This document shows positions 9,204 through 38,114 of a DNA stretch of 39,789 nucleotides, piece by piece. The stretch is taken from the NCBI GenBank assembly GCA_009885535.1, contig VFKL01000172.1:1-39789 (forward strand), written 5' to 3'. The position numbers were made by a program, and so were the translations under genes. This stretch comes from Chitinophagaceae bacterium. GTDB lineage: Bacteria > Bacteroidota > Bacteroidia > Chitinophagales > Chitinophagaceae. Position 1 is the first letter of the stretch; the number at the start of each line of letters is the position of its first letter. The notes under the pieces are model-generated. The model did not search any database. It had not been told where the DNA came from and saw only the letters and a program-made list of their open reading frames with translations.

Positions 9204-9347
9204 TAGGTGTTGAAAAGTTTAAGTGTTTAATTCGCTGCGCGGGTTTAAAGGTTGGGAGAAAATGTCAGCGTGAAAATGAGCGTGAAAGCGAATATTGATT
9301 TTTGATTTTTTTCTTCATACACATTCTGTTTTCCGCTCTAAATAATA

Positions 9348-9380
9348 CTTTGTGTCTTCGTGACTTTGTGCCTTCGTGTC
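9348..9380. repeat. Degenerate 'CACGAAGRCACAAAG' intergenic repeat
   Basis: ctttgtgtcttcgtgactttgtgccttcgtgtc; reverse complement matches the array at 15631-15751. Confidence 0.55.
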
Positions 9381-9388
9381 AAAAAACA

Positions 9389-9422
9389 CTGCCGATGTTG
9401 GTGTTATCACCAATCATCAAAG
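9389..9422 (+). repeat. REP-like hairpin copy 1
   Basis: ctgccGATGTTGGTG-TTAT-CACCAA-t-CATCaaag: 6-bp inner stem plus 4-bp outer stem around a bulged T. Confidence 0.75.
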
Positions 9423-9430
9423 TAGATTAG

Positions 9431-9457
9431 GCCTAAGGCGTTTAATATGTTTTAGAT
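9431..9457 (+). repeat. 9-bp period repeat (GTTTNANNN) preceding REP copy 2
   Basis: gcctaaggc|gtttaatat|gttttagat|gttgagaattttcgtctgcc. Confidence 0.55.
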
Positions 9458-9470
9458 GTTGAGAATTTTC

Positions 9471-9507
9471 GTCTGCCGATGTTGGTGTTATCACCAATCA
9501 TCAAAGT
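9471..9507 (+). repeat. REP-like hairpin copy 2
   Basis: gtctgccGATGTTGGTGTTATCACCAATCATCaaag, identical core to copy 1. Confidence 0.8.
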
Positions 9508-9541: not shown

Positions 9542-10050
9542 TCAACCTGTCATTATCCCAAAATAATCATCACCACAATTGTAGTAACTTGCGGAAGAAT
9601 ATTTGTAATCTTCAGGAAATATACATTTCCCCGCTTTCACGGGATTGTCATGTATATAATTCATTTTTTGTACAAAGAATTTTTCAGAAAACAACTCAAC
9701 TGATAGAGCATTCTTTTTCCAAAACTGAAATACACGATCATCTTTTTTTACTTTGAAATCTTGTAAATAATAATCATCAGATTTCATTAACTCGAACTTC
9801 ATTTGTTGGACTGTAAATTTCATGAAATTATGTATTATTTTATTATGAATATTTCACCTAAAACTAGCCAAATCAAATGGATATGATTATCCATAATAAC
9901 TAAAGCGTGAAGTTTGATTTTTTTATTATCTACTAGATATTTAAGACTAGAAATAATGATGTTTTTAAAAATGTTATTATCGAGTAAAAATTTCCAGTCA
10001 ATGATTGTTGCGGTATAGAATTGAGGCCAATGAATTGAATAATTATTCAT
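9542..10050 (-). pseudogene. REP-associated tyrosine transposase (Y1/HUH, RAYT-like), frameshifted
   Basis: Two minus ORFs (10050-9835 and 9823-9542). HUH motif HALVIMDNHIHLIW in the first; DDRVFQFWKKNALSVELFSEKFFVQKMNYIHDNPVKAGKCIFPEDYKYSSASYY in the second. Adding one nt near 9850-9854 joins them as ...LVLGENIHNKIIHNFMKFTVQQ.... Confidence 0.85.
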
Positions 10051-10121: not shown

Positions 10122-10151
10122 CGCCGATTTGTTGGTGAAAACACCAACAAA
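10122..10151. repeat. REP-like hairpin copy 3 (variant)
   Basis: TTTGTTGGTG-AAAA-CACCAACAAA perfect 10-bp stem at 10128-10151, preceded by gccga. Confidence 0.7.
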
Positions 10152-10162
10152 AACAAAGCATC

Positions 10163-10254
10163 GAAAGAGATTTTCAGAAAACAACTCAACTGATAGTGCT
10201 TTCCTCTTCCCAAACTGAAATACACGATTATCTTTTTTTACTATGAAATTTTAA
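10163..10254 (-). pseudogene. Second, fragmentary copy of the RAYT transposase C-terminal region
   Basis: 10170-10254 aligns with 9680-9764 at high identity (first 26 nt identical); minus translation KDNRVFQFGKRKALSVELFSENLF versus DDRVFQFWKKNALSVELFSEKFF. Confidence 0.8.
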
Positions 10255-10332
10255 GTAAATGGAGATGATAAATGATTATGTTTCATAAATTGCGCACAAA
10301 AGTATATTTATGGGTAATAAAATACACGTTAC

Positions 10333-10785: not shown

Positions 10786-11157
10786 GGGTGGAGCTGCAGG
10801 GAATCGAACCCTGGTCCAAACATATTCGCCATAAGCTTTCTACATGTTTATTCTGTAATTATTTGTAGGGAAAATACAGGGAACAGACAAACCAATATTT
10901 TCCTTAGATGAATGGTCTTAAGCCAACGTCACATCATTCGCGGGCAGCAACCTGTGTTTGTTTTGAGTCGGCGGCGGAGCATGGTAACAGATAAACCTGC
11001 TCGGCGGCCCGAATGGATGCTAATCTATCGATTAAGCAGCCATGGCATACGAAGTATTGCCATTTAGAGTTTGAATATTCAGATTTAAGTGCTAATTATC
11101 CAACGCACTACATGCTTACACTTACAAAGATCTATGCTGTCAAAACCGGTCAGCCCC
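10786..11157 (-). ncRNA. ssrA: tmRNA (transfer-messenger RNA)
   Basis: Minus strand 5' GGGGCTGACCGGTTTTGACAGC; 3' GGACCAGGGTTCGATTCCCTGCAGCTCCA; acceptor halves GGGGCTG/CAGCTCC. Internal reading frame GGC AAT ACT TCG TAT GCC ATG GCT GCT TAA (GNTSYAMAA*) at 11061-11032. Confidence 0.95.
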
Positions 11158-14603: not shown

Positions 14604-15620
14604 GTGCAAATTCAAGAAAACATATCGTTAAAGAAGTACAATACATTTGGAATGAATGTATCGGCAAAATATTTTTATCGGTTTTCTACAGTTGATCAAA
14701 TGCAAGAAATTGGAGCATCAGAAACCTTTAAACATAATCCTGTATTGATTTTAGGTGGAGGAAGCAATATGTTGTTAACTACAAATTTTGAAGGGCTTGT
14801 TTTAAAAAATGAAATCCCTGGTATTGAACTTGTATCAGAAGATGAAGAACATTATTTTGTAAAAGTGGGTGCTGGTGTGGATTGGCAGGAATTTGTTTTG
14901 TATTGTTTAGAAAAAAACTATGCAGGTGTTGAAAATCTAGCTTTGATTCCAGGGAAAGTAGGTGCGTCACCCATGCAAAACATTGGCGCGTACGGTGTAG
15001 AATTGAAAGATGTTTTTCATTCGCTAGAAGCCATTAACGTTAATGATTTAAATGTAGTTACTTTTTACAATGGGGATTGTGAATTTGGATACAGAGAAAG
15101 CATTTTTAAAAATAAATGTAAAAATCAATTTGTAATTACGTCAGTTACTTTTAAGTTAAACAAGATTCCGGTATACAAAACGGCTTACGGTGCAATTGAA
15201 GATGCGCTTCAAGAAATGAAAGTAGATGCATTATCCATTCAACATATTGCACAAGCGGTAATGCATATACGCAATAGCAAACTCCCCAATCCCAATGTTA
15301 TCGGTAATGCGGGAAGTTTTTTTAAAAACCCTGAAATTGAAGCTTTTCAATTCGAATCATTGAAAAATTATTTCCCAAATATCAATGGTTATCCTACAGA
15401 TTCCGGTAAAATTAAAATTGCTGCGGGTTGGTTAATCGAGCAAGCCGGTTGGAAAGGCTATCGTAAAGGTGATGCGGGTTGTCATGATAAACAAGCCCTA
15501 GTATTGGTTAACCATGGAAAAGCAACAGGTACAGAAATTTTTGAATTGAGTGAAAATATCATTTCATCTGTGCATGATAAATTCGGGATTTTTTTACATC
15601 GAGAAGTGAATATTTATTAA
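14604..15620 (+). CDS. murB: UDP-N-acetylmuramate dehydrogenase
   Basis: NTFGMNVSAKYF, LGGGSNMLL, NLALIPGKVGASPMQNIGAYGVE, GNAGSFFKNP. GTG start. Confidence 0.97.
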   Translation: MQIQENISLKKYNTFGMNVSAKYFYRFSTVDQMQEIGASETFKHNPVLILGGGSNMLLTTNFEGLVLKNEIPGIELVSEDEEHYFVKVGAGVDWQEFVLYCLEKNYAGVENLALIPGKVGASPMQNIGAYGVELKDVFHSLEAINVNDLNVVTFYNGDCEFGYRESIFKNKCKNQFVITSVTFKLNKIPVYKTAYGAIEDALQEMKVDALSIQHIAQAVMHIRNSKLPNPNVIGNAGSFFKNPEIEAFQFESLKNYFPNINGYPTDSGKIKIAAGWLIEQAGWKGYRKGDAGCHDKQALVLVNHGKATGTEIFELSENIISSVHDKFGIFLHREVNIY

Positions 15621-15630
15621 AGGGGGTAAA

Positions 15631-15751
15631 CACGAAGGCGCAATGAAAAGAAACACGAAGGCACGAAGTTTTTGTTTCACGCAAAGAACGCAAAGGAGCA
15701 AAGACGCAAAGGCAGGAAACACGAAGGCACAAATCCACAAAGTTTTTTAAC
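15631..15751. repeat. Degenerate CACGAAGGC / CGCAAAGA intergenic repeat array
   Basis: cacgaaggcg...aaacacgaaggcacgaag...cacgcaaagaacgcaaaggagcaaagacgcaaaggc...acacgaaggcacaaatccacaaag. Confidence 0.65.
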
Positions 15752-15800
15752 CAAAAAGGCAAAAACGTAAAACATTTCCAAAAAATTGAACATCTATCTC

Positions 15801-15836
15801 CTTTGATGATTGGTGAAAACACCAACATCGGCAGAC
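15801..15836 (-). repeat. REP-like hairpin copy 4
   Basis: ctttgatgattggtgaaaacaccaacatcggcagac (reverse complement of the family core). Confidence 0.8.
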
Positions 15837-15849
15837 GGAAATTCCCAAC

Positions 15850-15885
15850 CTCTTGAACATATTGAATATATTGAACCTTTTGAAC
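15850..15885 (-). repeat. 9-bp repeat array, 4 units (NNNTTGAAY) between REP copies 4 and 5
   Basis: ctcttgaac|atattgaat|atattgaac|cttttgaac. Confidence 0.8.
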
Positions 15886-15895
15886 ATCTATCTCA

Positions 15896-15930
15896 TTTGA
15901 TGATTGGTGAAAACACCAACATCGGCAGAC
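15896..15930 (-). repeat. REP-like hairpin copy 5
   Basis: tttgatgattggtgaaaacaccaacatcggcagac. Confidence 0.8.
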
Positions 15931-15943
15931 GAAAATCTCCAAC

Positions 15944-16018
15944 CTTTTGAACTTATTGAACCCATTGAACCTTTTGAACAACTTCAAAAACCTCACAAAC
16001 ATCTAAAACCTCAAAAAC
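15944..16018 (-). repeat. 9-bp repeat array, 4 + 4 units separated by a 3-nt offset
   Basis: cttttgaac|ttattgaac|ccattgaac|cttttgaac|(aac)|ttcaaaaac|ctcacaaac|atctaaaac|ctcaaaaac, ending 3 nt before the stop codon of the minus-strand MoxR-like gene. Confidence 0.8.
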
Positions 16019-16021
16019 CTC

Positions 16022-17539
16022 TTAGAAATCCCCTTCATTAAAATCTTCCTCCGAAAAATGCTGCGATCCCATGTTTATCATGCTCCCCATTAAATCTTTA
16101 AACTCAATTTTACCGTCTAATACTTTTTTGCTTATTAATGAATAACTCGATAATCCATGCAATACGAATTCCATCAATAAACCTGTTTCCATTTCATTGA
16201 TGTTTGGATAAGTCTTTTTTACTAAAGCATACAATCCATCTACAGTGTATAATAAATGTATTTTATCCGCATCTTTTGTTTCTAAAAATACATTTAGATT
16301 GTTTCCCGAATCAAACCATTTTGTAATTGGTGCGTAAGGGTTTTCTGCTTTTTGATTCTCTTTATTTTTTTTCTTTTTTAACGTATCTGGATTCGGGAAA
16401 TAAGTAATGAACAATGCTCTTATGGCTTTATCTACTAGGTTGTATGCAACTTGATATGGCCCTTCTTGTTCGCCTTCATACACCAGTTCTACTTTACCGG
16501 TTATAGATGGAATGATGCCTGTTAAATCACTTATCCAAACTTGCGTTTTTTCTTCCTGATTGATAATAGCCCTTCTTTCTGCAGCACTTACAGCATTTTC
16601 ATATGCAGATATCGTCAAACGAGCACTTACGCCACTTTTCTTATCCACCATTTCACTATTTCTTGCTTCAAAAGAAACTTGCTCTATCAATCGTTTGATT
16701 AAATCGCTTACGTCTACGCGTTGCTGTTGGGCGTCTATTTTGTTTGCCTCCTGTTCGGTTATCGCTAATGATGTTTCTACTGATTTTGGATAATGCGTCA
16801 AAATCTGGCTTTGTATTCTGTCTTTTAATGGGGTTACAATGCTTCCGCGATTGGTGTAATCCTCGGGGTTGGCAGTAAACACAAATAATATATCAAGTGG
16901 TAGTCTTAATTTGAACCCTCTAATTTGCAAATCACCTTCTTCCAAAATATTAAACAACGACACTTGAATCCTTGCTTGTAAATCGGGTAGTTCGTTTATC
17001 ACAAATATGCTTCTATTGCTTCTTGGAATAATGCCGTAATGTAACACGCGTTCATCTGCAAAACTTAATTTCAAATTTGCTGCTTTTATTGGGTCGATAT
17101 CGCCAATTAAATCTGCTACACTCACATCTGGAGTGGCTAGTTTTTCGCCATAACGTTGAGATTTATGCAACCAATTTATAGGGGTTTTATCGCCATTTTC
17201 TTCAATCAAATCTATCGCATATCTAGATATCGGATGGTAAGGGTCATCGTTGATTTCGCTGCCTGCAATTACAGGAATGTATTCATCTAGCAAATCAACC
17301 ATTTGACGTGCCATACGCGTTTTTGCCTGTCCGCGAAGTCCCAAAAACAATATGTTGTGTCTGCTTAATAATGCGCGTTCTGTATCCGGAATTACTGTGT
17401 CTTCGTAACCCATTATTCCAGGAAATGGATTTTCTTTTTCTGTTATTTTTTTTATAAGGTTATTTCTGATTTCATCTTTTATTGATTTAGATATCCATCC
17501 ACTTTTTATAAGTTCACCTAATGTTGATATTTGATTCAT
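16022..17539 (-). CDS. MoxR / Mg-chelatase subunit I-like AAA+ ATPase
   Basis: Walker A GLRGQAKTRM, Walker B-like IFVINELPDL, FNILEEGDLQIRGFKLRLPLDILFVFTANPEDYTNRG...PLKDRI. Confidence 0.85.
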   Translation of the reverse strand: MNQISTLGELIKSGWISKSIKDEIRNNLIKKITEKENPFPGIMGYEDTVIPDTERALLSRHNILFLGLRGQAKTRMARQMVDLLDEYIPVIAGSEINDDPYHPISRYAIDLIEENGDKTPINWLHKSQRYGEKLATPDVSVADLIGDIDPIKAANLKLSFADERVLHYGIIPRSNRSIFVINELPDLQARIQVSLFNILEEGDLQIRGFKLRLPLDILFVFTANPEDYTNRGSIVTPLKDRIQSQILTHYPKSVETSLAITEQEANKIDAQQQRVDVSDLIKRLIEQVSFEARNSEMVDKKSGVSARLTISAYENAVSAAERRAIINQEEKTQVWISDLTGIIPSITGKVELVYEGEQEGPYQVAYNLVDKAIRALFITYFPNPDTLKKKKNKENQKAENPYAPITKWFDSGNNLNVFLETKDADKIHLLYTVDGLYALVKKTYPNINEMETGLLMEFVLHGLSSYSLISKKVLDGKIEFKDLMGSMINMGSQHFSEEDFNEGDF

Positions 17540-34750: not shown

Positions 34751-37696
34751 ATGAACAAATTAATCAGCTTTCTATTTTTTGCATTGATGCACACTGGTGT
34801 TCAAGCACAAATAAATTATGTAGAAGACGTGAATCCGTTTATTGGCACTGGTGGACATGGGCACACGTATCCCGGCGCTACATTGCCGCATGGGATGGTA
34901 CAACTTAGTCCAGATACGCGACTTGAAGGTTGGGATGGATGCAGTGGTTATCATTATTCAGATAGTTTTATTTATGGATTTTCGCATACACATCTAAGTG
35001 GTACGGGTTGTAGCGATTATGGCGATGTTTTAATTATGCCAGGAAACGGAATTCCAAATCCCTTGCAATCAAAATATCGTTCTGCATTTAATCACCGTAA
35101 AGAAAAAGCAAGTCCTGGTTATTATGCGGTGCATCTCGAAAAAGATGATATTTATGCAGAATTAACAACAACAGAGCGTGTAGGATATCATCATTACTTA
35201 TTCAATTCAAAAAAAAATAATTTTGTAATCATCGATTTAAAACATCGGGATGAAGTCATTGAATCTTCCATAAAAATTGAAGACAGTGTAACCATCACAG
35301 GATTGAGGCGCAGTAAGGCTTGGGCAAATAATCAGTTCGTTTATTTTGTGATGAAATTTTCTCAGCCGATTAAAAATTGGGGCATTTGGGAAAATGACAT
35401 TGAAGATGAAAAACAAAAAAATGAAGCGTCTGGAAAAAACATCAAAGCATATATCTATTTCGAACGATCTGTTGCGAATGACTTGTTTATAAAAGTGGCC
35501 ATTTCTCCCGTAAGTATAGAAGGTGCAAAAAAAAATCTGGATGCCGAAATTGGAAACCAATCCTTCAACGAAATTAAAAACATTGCAGCACAAAAATGGA
35601 ACCAGGAGCTGTCTAAAATTGATGTAAAATCTACAGATAAAAATCAAAGAAAAATATTTTATACGGCTTTATATCATACCGCCATTGTGCCCAATATCAA
35701 TATGGATGTAGATGGAAGTTATCGTGGTATGGACAATGAAATTCATCAGGCAAAGGGCTTTACATATTATTCTGTGTTTTCTTTATGGGATACGTATCGA
35801 GCTGCGCATCCTTTATACACTATAATTGATAAAAAAAGAACACTGGATTATATCAAAACATTTTTGGTGCAATATCAACAAGGTGGAAGGTTGCCGGTTT
35901 GGGAATTGGCATCTTGCGAAACTGATTGTATGATTGGATATCACAGTGTGCCTGTAATAGTGGATGCATACATGAAAGGCATAACAGATTTTGATACTAA
36001 ATTGGCATTGGAAGCCATGTTGAAATCTGCAAAATGGAATCATTTGGGATTGCCCGCATTTATTAATCAAGGCGTGATAAATATTGAGGATGAACATGAA
36101 AGCGTGAGTAAAAATTTGGAGTATGCTTATGATGATTATTGTATTGCCATTTTTGCAAAATCTTTGGGGGATGATAAAACTTATCATGAGTTTTTAAAAC
36201 GGGCACAAAATTATAAGAATCTATTTGATATTAAAACGGGGTTTATGCGCCCCAGAAAAAATGGCGGTTGGTTAAATCCTTTTGAACCAAGAGAAGTAAA
36301 CAATCATTTTACAGAGGCGAATAGTTGGCAATATTCATTTTGTTTTCCTCAAGATATAAATGGGTACATAAAAATGATTGGAGGTAAGAAAAATCTGGAG
36401 AAAAAGTTAGATGCATTATTTAATGAAAATTCAAAAACAACGGGAAGAGATCAAAGCGACATTACGGGCTTGATTGGTCAATATGCCCATGGGAATGAAC
36501 CAAGTCATCATATTGCGTATTTGTATAATTACACCAATCATCCTTCAAAAACACAATTTTATGCAAATAAAGTAATGAAGGAATTCTATAAAAATGAGCC
36601 AGATGGATTAATTGGAAATGAAGACTGTGGGCAAATGAGTGCTTGGTATGTATTGAGTGCATTGGGTTTTTATCCAGTTACACCTAGTGATAACACATAC
36701 ATGATTGGCTCGCCACAATTTAAAGAAGCAACCATTCATTTGGAAAACGGGAAGCAATTTTTGATAAAAGCGACAGGTGTAAATGAAAAAAATATTTTCG
36801 TACAATCCGCTAATTTAAACACATCAAATAAAAACAATTCGGTAAAATTGAAATTGGATTATTTAAATCATGCAGATATTTCGAATGGTGGAAATTTGGA
36901 TTTTAAAATGGGAGGCAAAAAGAAAAATAGTTTACAAATGGTTGAAATTAAAAAACCATTAAATGAATGGATGGGTGGAAGTTTTGTAGTAAATCCAACG
37001 ATTGAAAGCCGAAATATTTCATTTAGAGATACACAATGGATATCAATAAATACATTCGAGTCAAATGTAAAATTATATTATACCACAGATGGAGCAGAAC
37101 CTTCAATAGAATCTAAATTTTATACCAAGTCGTTTTTGATTGATAAAACCACAAACATTAAAGCTATTGCAATAGATGAAAATGGCAATAAAAGTTTTAT
37201 AACTACGGCTACATTTAAACAATCCATTAATAATTGGGAAGTTAAATTAAACACGCCATTTGAACCACAGTATGAAGGAGGCGGCGCATCGGGTTTGATA
37301 GACGGAATTTACGGAACTACAAATTGGCGAATGGGTAATTGGCAAGGATATCAATTGAATGATTTTGATGCAGTTATTAATTTAAAAGAAGTGAAAAATA
37401 TTTCAAAAGTTACAGCCAGTTTTTTGCAAGATATTCGCCCATGGATTGTAATGCCAAAGCAAGTTTTAGTAGAGGTTTCTTTTGATGGAAAAGAATTTCA
37501 TCAAGTATATAGTGGAACCGATTTTTTAAAGATTGAAGATACAAATCCACAGGTAAAAAAAGTAGAAGCCACATTTAAAAATCAGCCGGTTCAATATATT
37601 CGAGTTATAGCCAAGCAATATGGCAAACTTCCATCTTGGCATGAAGGCGCAGGTGGTGATACGCATTTGTTTGTGGATGAGATTACAGTGGAGTAG
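34751..37696 (+). CDS. GH92 family glycosyl hydrolase (alpha-mannosidase-like) with C-terminal chitobiase-C-like and F5/8-type-C-like region
   Basis: VNPFIGTGGHGHTYPGATLPHGMVQLSPDTR; GYHYSDSFIYGFSHTHLSGTGCSDYGD; YYTTDGAEPSIESKFYTKSF; IRVIAKQYGKLPSWHEGAGGDTHLFVDEITVE. Confidence 0.93.
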   Translation: MNKLISFLFFALMHTGVQAQINYVEDVNPFIGTGGHGHTYPGATLPHGMVQLSPDTRLEGWDGCSGYHYSDSFIYGFSHTHLSGTGCSDYGDVLIMPGNGIPNPLQSKYRSAFNHRKEKASPGYYAVHLEKDDIYAELTTTERVGYHHYLFNSKKNNFVIIDLKHRDEVIESSIKIEDSVTITGLRRSKAWANNQFVYFVMKFSQPIKNWGIWENDIEDEKQKNEASGKNIKAYIYFERSVANDLFIKVAISPVSIEGAKKNLDAEIGNQSFNEIKNIAAQKWNQELSKIDVKSTDKNQRKIFYTALYHTAIVPNINMDVDGSYRGMDNEIHQAKGFTYYSVFSLWDTYRAAHPLYTIIDKKRTLDYIKTFLVQYQQGGRLPVWELASCETDCMIGYHSVPVIVDAYMKGITDFDTKLALEAMLKSAKWNHLGLPAFINQGVINIEDEHESVSKNLEYAYDDYCIAIFAKSLGDDKTYHEFLKRAQNYKNLFDIKTGFMRPRKNGGWLNPFEPREVNNHFTEANSWQYSFCFPQDINGYIKMIGGKKNLEKKLDALFNENSKTTGRDQSDITGLIGQYAHGNEPSHHIAYLYNYTNHPSKTQFYANKVMKEFYKNEPDGLIGNEDCGQMSAWYVLSALGFYPVTPSDNTYMIGSPQFKEATIHLENGKQFLIKATGVNEKNIFVQSANLNTSNKNNSVKLKLDYLNHADISNGGNLDFKMGGKKKNSLQMVEIKKPLNEWMGGSFVVNPTIESRNISFRDTQWISINTFESNVKLYYTTDGAEPSIESKFYTKSFLIDKTTNIKAIAIDENGNKSFITTATFKQSINNWEVKLNTPFEPQYEGGGASGLIDGIYGTTNWRMGNWQGYQLNDFDAVINLKEVKNISKVTASFLQDIRPWIVMPKQVLVEVSFDGKEFHQVYSGTDFLKIEDTNPQVKKVEATFKNQPVQYIRVIAKQYGKLPSWHEGAGGDTHLFVDEITVE

Positions 37697-37705
37697 GAGG
37701 AAGAT

Positions 37706-37741
37706 GTTTGAGAGGTTTAAAACGTTTAAGACGTTTAAGAT
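37706..37741 (+). repeat. 9-bp repeat array, 4 units (GTTTRARNN)
   Basis: gtttgagag|gtttaaaac|gtttaagac|gtttaagat then gttggcattttcgtctgcc. Confidence 0.8.
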
Positions 37742-37753
37742 GTTGGCATTTTC

Positions 37754-37785
37754 GTCTGCCGATGTTGGTGTTTTTACCAATTATC
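37754..37785 (+). repeat. REP-like hairpin copy 6
   Basis: gtctgccGATGTTGGTG-TTTT-TACCAA-t-TATC; the changes keep G.T wobble pairs. Confidence 0.75.
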
Positions 37786-37830
37786 ACACAAAGGAGGTTT
37801 GGGAGGTTTTCAAACTTTCAAATGTTTGCT

Positions 37831-37881
37831 GGCGCCGGTTTCCAAACCGGTGTCTTTTTAAACATTCGGTTTCTAACCGAA
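37831..37881. repeat. Two tandem stem-loops (possible terminator or second repeat family)
   Basis: GGCGCCGGTTT-CC-AAACCGGTGTC (37831-37854) followed by TTTTT; TTCGGTT-TCT-AACCGAA (37865-37881). Confidence 0.65.
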
Positions 37882-37892
37882 AAGATTGAATA

Positions 37893-38069
37893 AACCCGGA
37901 TTTTGCAGTTGGAATCGTGATGAAAGGAAAAAAGGCAATAAAGACGGGTGTTTGAGCCGATTTTTTGGTTGATAACATATTGAAATATGGCAATATCAAA
38001 AAGTCAAGCAAACGCTTGTATTTGCAGCATTTTTTTCTTGTAATAGATTTCAACTGCAAAATTTGGGTT
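37893..38069. mobile_element. MITE-like element with imperfect 24-bp terminal inverted repeats
   Basis: AACCCGGATTTTGCAGTTGGAATC (37893-37916) versus reverse complement of 38046-38069, AACCCAAATTTTGCAGTTGAAATC: 21 of 24 positions match. Confidence 0.5.
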
Positions 38070-38114
38070 AAACCATTAAACAATAAACCAGCGAAGCGAT
38101 TTAAACCTTTTTCC

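Follow-up and report, generated by a model that had tools for sequence, protein, structure and literature searches.

A probable BIME-like mosaic of a RAYT-associated REP hairpin and a separable nine-base-pair intergenic array in a freshwater Bacteroidota genome

The intergenic repeats described here, from a lineage of freshwater Bacteroidota, are best read, with a probability that we place at about 0.6, as a BIME-like mosaic, composed of two repeat families independent of each other, in which a REP belonging to a RAYT (REP-associated tyrosine transposase) became joined to an older, constrained intergenic minisatellite. The two parts, a hairpin and an array of nonamers, are separable. The window, i.e. 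the whole stretch of 39,789 nucleotides that was analysed, is contig C195 of a 2.57-Mb assembly (210 contigs, 91.8% complete), and its MurB gene is 87–89% identical to those of the nearest named relatives, which are metagenome bins of Chitinophagaceae or Bacteroidetes.

Results

Make-up of the arrays and hairpins

The arrays and hairpins that a preliminary description had placed in the window were found there. Those outside the transposase region are as follows:

15786..15980, minus strand: tandem duplication of the array-plus-hairpin composite (94 bp, 2.1 copies, 91% alike)
15805..15836, minus strand: second copy of the REP hairpin, recognized by stem match
15850..15885, minus strand: second GTTCAANNN array, four units, one of them ATTCAA
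15899..15930, minus strand: REP hairpin, GTCTGCC head followed by GATGTTGGTG-TTTT-CACCAATCATC, predicted fold -7.7 kcal/mol, z -4.5
15944..15979, minus strand: GTTCAANNN array, four units (AAG, TGG, TAA, AAG); the orthologous site in L072, L073 and L075 has the same block
15980..16021, minus strand: leading [GAGGTTTNN]n block of variable unit number, whose first base directly adjoins the stop codon of the gene at 16022-17539 (minus strand); orthologues in three relatives differ in units
37706..37741, plus strand: GTTYRANNN array, four units, beginning 9 nt downstream of a stop codon (37694-37696); conserved in L213, L214 and L217
37754..37785, plus strand: copy of the REP hairpin behind the preceding array, recognized by stem match

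Three consecutive GTTYAANNN units, with up to three mismatches, occur 13 times in the window against 1.2 expected, and the hairpin stem TCTGCCGATGTTGGTG six times against 0.1 expected. Tandem Repeats Finder (TRF) returned the 9-bp arrays together with the 94-bp tandem repeat of array and hairpin at 15786-15980, and Rfam returned only the tmRNA, the gene for which lies at 10786-11157 (minus strand) and specifies the tag GNTSYAMAA. The array consensus is GTTCAARAG-GTTCAATRN-GTTCAATRN-GTTCAAAAG-GTTGG, often with a variable [GAGGTTTNN]n block in front. The arrays had been called exact; they are not, since the array at 15850-15885 contains an ATTCAA unit, the one at 37706 begins with GTTTGA and the one at 9431-9457 is poor. 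Neither is the array near 16.0 kb separated from a stop codon by 3 nt: the minus-strand GAGGTTTNN block begins right behind the TAA of the 16022-17539 gene. The 3-nt offset noted at this site is present, and corresponds to a shortened unit, GAAGTT|GTTCAA; two of the three relatives compared have it at the same site, and it is therefore old. Variation in unit number of the kind seen in a VNTR was found between species for the leading GAGGTTTNN block; the GTTCAA block usually retains three to five units.

Arrays with an 8-bp period (ACACGAAGGC...; CTTYGTGN), located at 15640-15730 and 9347-9378, fill much of the array-bearing gaps, and in one class of arrays they lie behind the nonamers via a GGAAGYATTTTCC...TTTATAAAAAA linker.

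The hairpin consists of a KTCTGCC head and an imperfect stem, GATGTTGGTG/CACCAATCATC. The head reads GTCTGCC/GGTCTGCC and not GTAG/GTRG, the stem begins with GA and the tail is AAAG; the AT stem start and CCA tail of the CGTC REP superfamily are absent. A CGTC tag precedes most copies, and GGTC precedes several. With about 38 copies in the genome (39 matches at up to two mismatches), the element is a short imperfect palindrome that is intergenic and highly repeated, as REPs are. A further hairpin, GGCGCCGGTTTCCAAACCGGTG, is found at 37829-37850, just behind the one at 37754..37785, and is the REP of another RAYT of this genome, L071.

A cognate RAYT

The hairpin is linked to a RAYT gene, of which a decayed copy lies in the window and an intact orthologue in a relative:

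9388..9418, plus strand: copy of the REP hairpin, ACTGCC head, located 3' of the RAYT pseudogene
9440..9463, plus strand: degenerate array, two to three units
9471..9502, plus strand: copy of the REP hairpin, adjoining the pseudogene at its 3' end
9542..10050, minus strand: decayed RAYT between hairpin copies, with a frameshift between 9823 and 9835
10128..10151, plus strand: variant hairpin TTTGTTGGTG-AAAA-CACCAACAAA, located 5' of the pseudogene; also in L240, at about 2161
L240:1571-2080, minus strand: intact RAYT orthologue of 169 aa in the relative G455

Because of its frameshift, the gene at 9542-10050 was missed by the Pfam profile. The intact gene of G455 (L240) is flanked by three TCTGCC hairpins on its 3' side, all without a nonamer array, and by the variant hairpin (TTGGTG...CACCAA) on its 5' side; both it and the window pseudogene are flanked by the same hairpin. 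GCCGAT occurs on the same strand on both sides of the RAYT, and the inverted REP pair of the gammaproteobacterial type is absent. Hairpins of the TTGGTG/CACCAA type are also present in the flanks of three related RAYTs (L322, L324, L325). Judged by these features, the hairpin belongs to the REP-type elements and has a cognate RAYT.

The L240 protein carries both catalytic motifs of TnpA-Y1 subclass 2.6 (NH[LIV]H and YIH[QN]NP), as NHIH and YIHNNP, and its SS motif, as YKYSS; the clade of L240 has FWK or FWE where the WQ motif is expected. On these motifs it resembles subclass 2.6, which equals RAYT group 5. The match to the Pfam Y1_Tnp domain (E 2.8e-4, 21.4 bits) falls just below the 23-bit cut-off, and a PDB search with the RAYT gave no match. 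Homologues were found in 42 of 59 same-genus genomes. No intact RAYT of the 9542-10050 type was found in the window's own genome (91.8% complete), hence present mobility is doubtful there. The RAYT-like genes that Pfam had found first (L069-L071) were rejected as the cognate transposase on account of their different hairpins; L069 and L070 are two more Y1 transposase genes with hairpin families of their own (CGCTCCTCTGGAGCTA and GCTCCATAGGAGCGACCTGTTT). A second, partial copy of the 3' part of the RAYT lies beside the pseudogene at 10165-10260.

Array and hairpin are joined but separable

Genome-wide, a run of GTT every 9 bp precedes the hairpin with at least three units in 29 of 38 cases and at least two units in 32 of 38. 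Composites of array and hairpin recur in tandem at spacings of 91, 93, 93 and 94 bp, so that, as in a BIME, REPs and another short motif form repeated units of about 93 bp; the hairpins are direct tandem copies, and the alternating orientation of BIMEs is absent. Array and hairpin therefore do act as the composite repeat unit that had been proposed, and the hairpin is a REP. It had been reasoned that the composite would fall if most hairpins elsewhere lacked nonamers, or if nonamers occurred independently with equal frequency; most hairpins have them, and the independence holds in one direction, the nonamers being commoner than the hairpins and often alone. What found no support was the proposal that the nonamers are a structural part of the REP. 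When 78 arrays were anchored at the 3' end, a hairpin came next in 23; of the 55 without one, 27 continued as a GGAAGYATTTTCC-like tail and 28 as other sequence. In the same genus, G005 gave 9 array matches and G011 gave 27, and neither genome matched the hairpin at up to one mismatch. At the orthologues of the 16.0-kb site, the array stands alone in L072 and L075 and is followed by one hairpin in L073, compared with two hairpins in the window. Across the orthologous sites, a hairpin was seen in 12 of the 24 partners where the probed site bears one, versus 2 of 43 where it does not. The 3' tails read GGTTGGAAGYATTTTCC without the hairpin and GGTTGGRRATTTTC|GTCTGCC with it, a comparison which suggests, without proof, that the hairpin inserted at ATTTTC.

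Distribution of the arrays

The array occurred in a few species of a single genus. In the window's own genome, 312 three-unit matches were counted, against none in the reversed control. The three-unit GTTCAA array was present in 4 of 36 same-genus genomes (the window's own, G005, G011 and G017, the last being G456, since the match lists are identical), and among 396 genomes across the phylum it was absent except for three single matches. The GAGGTTTNN arrays were present in 6 of 58 same-genus genomes.

Other repeats were noticed as well. A repeat of about 180 bp at 37880-38075 is 85–92% alike to many copies in G011, whereas the genes of that genome are only about 68–70% identical to those here; it has spread recently and is perhaps a MITE. 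The GGGGTTGAAAATATTCAACCCTTAC palindrome, seen in L215 and many gaps, often stands directly 3' of a stop codon and before the nonamer array. Another repeat, AAAAGTCAGAGCGAAAATGAG...GACTTTTTTCATCATTTTCATTCTGTTTCTCGCTCT, occurs in several genomes and takes the place of arrays at orthologous sites (the gaps of sites 2 and 29).

The arrays are intergenic and lie at gene ends

Location was surveyed over 720 kb of G457 (with which G467 was taken to be the same genome, their C3 contigs being equally long), using runs of at least four GTT and gaps of at least 60 bp. A control on reversed sequence was discarded for this survey, as GTT runs arise from reversed arrays too. Outside genes lay 54 of the 55 arrays, and a coding origin was accordingly rejected. 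Arrays occupied 15 of 49 convergent gaps versus 23 of 282 other gaps (p = 6e-5), and they were present in divergent gaps as well. Behind a stop codon, 18 of 31 began within 12 nt of the stop; behind a start codon, the figure was 1 of 22. In tandem gaps, arrays were co-oriented with the genes 11 times and anti-oriented 13 times in G457; the counts were 16 and 12 in the biased sample from the window's own genome. A dedicated role in the 3'-UTR was rejected in view of this lack of orientation bias. Ten GAGGTTT sites on one contig are all on the same strand; a polarity with respect to replication is not claimed, as independent sites over the 720 kb were distributed 27:15 (p = 0.09), with the replication strand of G457 judged from GC skew only.

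The array is conserved at orthologous sites

The coding flanks of 30 array sites of the window's own genome (G000) were used as probes in three relatives. With the G000 sites picked for having arrays and alignment requiring 68% identity, the array was kept at 47 of 67 orthologous sites, compared with 0.2% in coding controls. Most of the missing arrays that were inspected had been replaced by other repeats at the orthologous site. Between orthologous arrays the GTT letters differ at 2–6% and the NNN letters at 15–32%, and 4-fold coding sites differ at 43% (a set that partly overlaps the orthologous-array set). All 18 core letters were retained in 36 of 67 relatives, versus about 3% when neutral decay was simulated at 0.2 per site; this estimate of constraint covers arrays still recognizable in the relatives, from which strongly decayed ones would drop out. 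The array thus persists vertically under position-specific constraint, and its persistence, the slow change of GTT, the faster change of NNN and the 43% at 4-fold sites point to a constrained DNA element.

The logo of paralogous arrays, in which the final GGTTG is the anchor and so is fixed by construction, has 0.01 and 0.16 bit at the third N of the middle units, and mostly 1.5–2 bits in the GTT and CAA columns beside it. Overall, the third N mismatches at 0.315 between orthologues and 0.467 between paralogues. Since orthologues share more of the N letters than paralogues do, wholesale conversion is not the source of the similarity. The unit number of the leading GAGGTTTNN block differs between species.

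Discussion

The course of events that we favor is the following: (i) the nonamer array would be an older, lineage-specific intergenic minisatellite, whose GAGGTTTNN block expands and contracts while the GTTCAA block is presumably held by selection on sequence; (ii) a RAYT transposase, now a pseudogene in the window, probably spread the hairpin as single-stranded DNA, as judged from its family; (iii) the REP would have become attached to the array at its 3' end (GGTTGGRRATTTTC|GTCTGCC); and (iv) the joined unit of about 93 bp may then have spread and been duplicated in tandem. Because its orientation ignores transcription, the array most likely has its role at gene boundaries in the form of DNA and not of RNA; it may be a boundary or a putative platform for binding where genes end, the REP being a passenger. 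More tentatively, the GTTCAA-TRN array is a candidate DNA platform recognized by its sequence (a nucleoid protein with a contact at each GTT, 9 bp apart, would be one example) that could have been selected at dozens of orthologous gene boundaries in one Bacteroidota lineage, with the RAYT-REP docked on its last unit. We infer both the transposition route and the existence of an array-binding protein. The last unit, TCAANNNNTTG, fits what we take to be the IHF core, and serves as a lead only.

Purely selfish or neutral repeats, which originate by slippage, are copied by recombination and come to lie near stop codons as deletion trims the gaps, would need no function at all. Such repeats would account for the narrow and patchy spread (4 of 36 same-genus genomes, the window's own included, and almost none of the 396 in the phylum), for the variable unit number and for the many other repeat modules that swap for one another in the same gaps. 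They do not account for conservation that is position-specific between species, nor for arrays retained at 47 of 67 orthologous sites when coding controls gave 0.2%, and we consider this explanation rather unlikely.

An element acting in RNA at the 3' end of messages, such as a terminator, an RNase barrier or a Rho-related site, is less probable still. Enrichment in convergent gaps and the frequent start right behind a stop codon could fit such a role, and REPs elsewhere have been reported to act at mRNA ends (PMC2817692, PMC3733652). However, arrays in tandem gaps show no preferred orientation (16 vs 12 in the own genome, 11 vs 13 in G457) and occur in divergent gaps too, the array itself does not fold, and a terminator scan of 15600-16100 called neither hairpin. 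That the array is an integral structural component of the REP and travels with it has become hardly credible, and is already largely refuted: the array that precedes 29 of 38 hairpins with at least three units (32 with at least two) and the tandem composites at 91–94 bp would be expected of such a part, but not the 55 of 78 hairpin-free arrays, the hairpin-free G005 and G011, the array-free hairpins inside the G455 RAYT locus or the comparison of filled and empty sites, where the array stands without the hairpin.

A Bacteroidota REP family is here linked to its RAYT and, if the mosaic is indeed a REP joined to a constrained minisatellite, an older minisatellite can acquire a REP. The system also offers a natural data set: about 80 arrays were sampled in a single genome, the sister species are suitably distant, and each 9-bp unit has both free and fixed letters. 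With it, selection on intergenic repeats, which are commonly written off as junk, can be put to a direct test.

Comparison with known systems

The mosaic resembles the known mosaic repeats of E. coli but has different parts. Short-period intergenic arrays similar to the nonamers, but with 7-bp units, are the short tandemly repeated repetitive (STRR) sequences of cyanobacteria, for which we know of no REP partner. No account joining REPs with nonamer arrays was found in open-access text.

The CGTC-tagged REPs, which include dRS3 of Neisseria (PMC3733652), are likewise short intergenic hairpins, often behind CGTC, and the family is reported from Bacteroidetes among others. In the present hairpin, CGTC is not invariant (several copies have GGTC), the AT stem start and the CCA tail are lacking, and a cognate RAYT exists. 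As for the transposase, TnpA-Y1 subclass 2.6, or RAYT group 5, is described as mostly from Bacteroidetes and as having atypical flanking structures (PMC6006769). The RAYT reported here shares with the subclass the Bacteroidetes host, the NHIH, YIHNNP and SS motifs and atypical flanking hairpins with copies elsewhere in the genome; it differs in having FWK in place of the WQ of the published table, and nonamer arrays are unmentioned in the parts of that description consulted (PMC6006769).

The nearest described kinds are BrickBuilt, a minisatellite-MITE of Porphyromonas gingivalis (PMC4596501), and the BIMEs and REPtrons of E. coli and Stenotrophomonas (PMC2817692), and the mosaic differs from both. 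BrickBuilt is also an intergenic tandem repeat of Bacteroidota, with strain-variable unit number and with conserved and variable positions in its unit; unlike the nonamer array, it has a 23-bp unit, a leader and a tail with IS5-like inverted ends, a proposed DDE-type mobilization and no REP hairpin (PMC4596501), while around the nonamer array no terminal inverted repeats were noticed by eye. BIMEs and REPtrons are intergenic mosaics in which non-palindromic sequence separates REP hairpins, their RAYT gene is flanked by the same hairpins and their composite units multiply (PMC2817692), all of which applies here. In contrast to these, the present hairpin is without a GTRG head and the hairpins at the RAYT locus are in one orientation and not inverted. 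In BIME-1 the sequence between the REPs binds IHF (PMC2817692); in the mosaic described here, the non-palindromic part is an array of 9-bp period that is mostly found without a REP.
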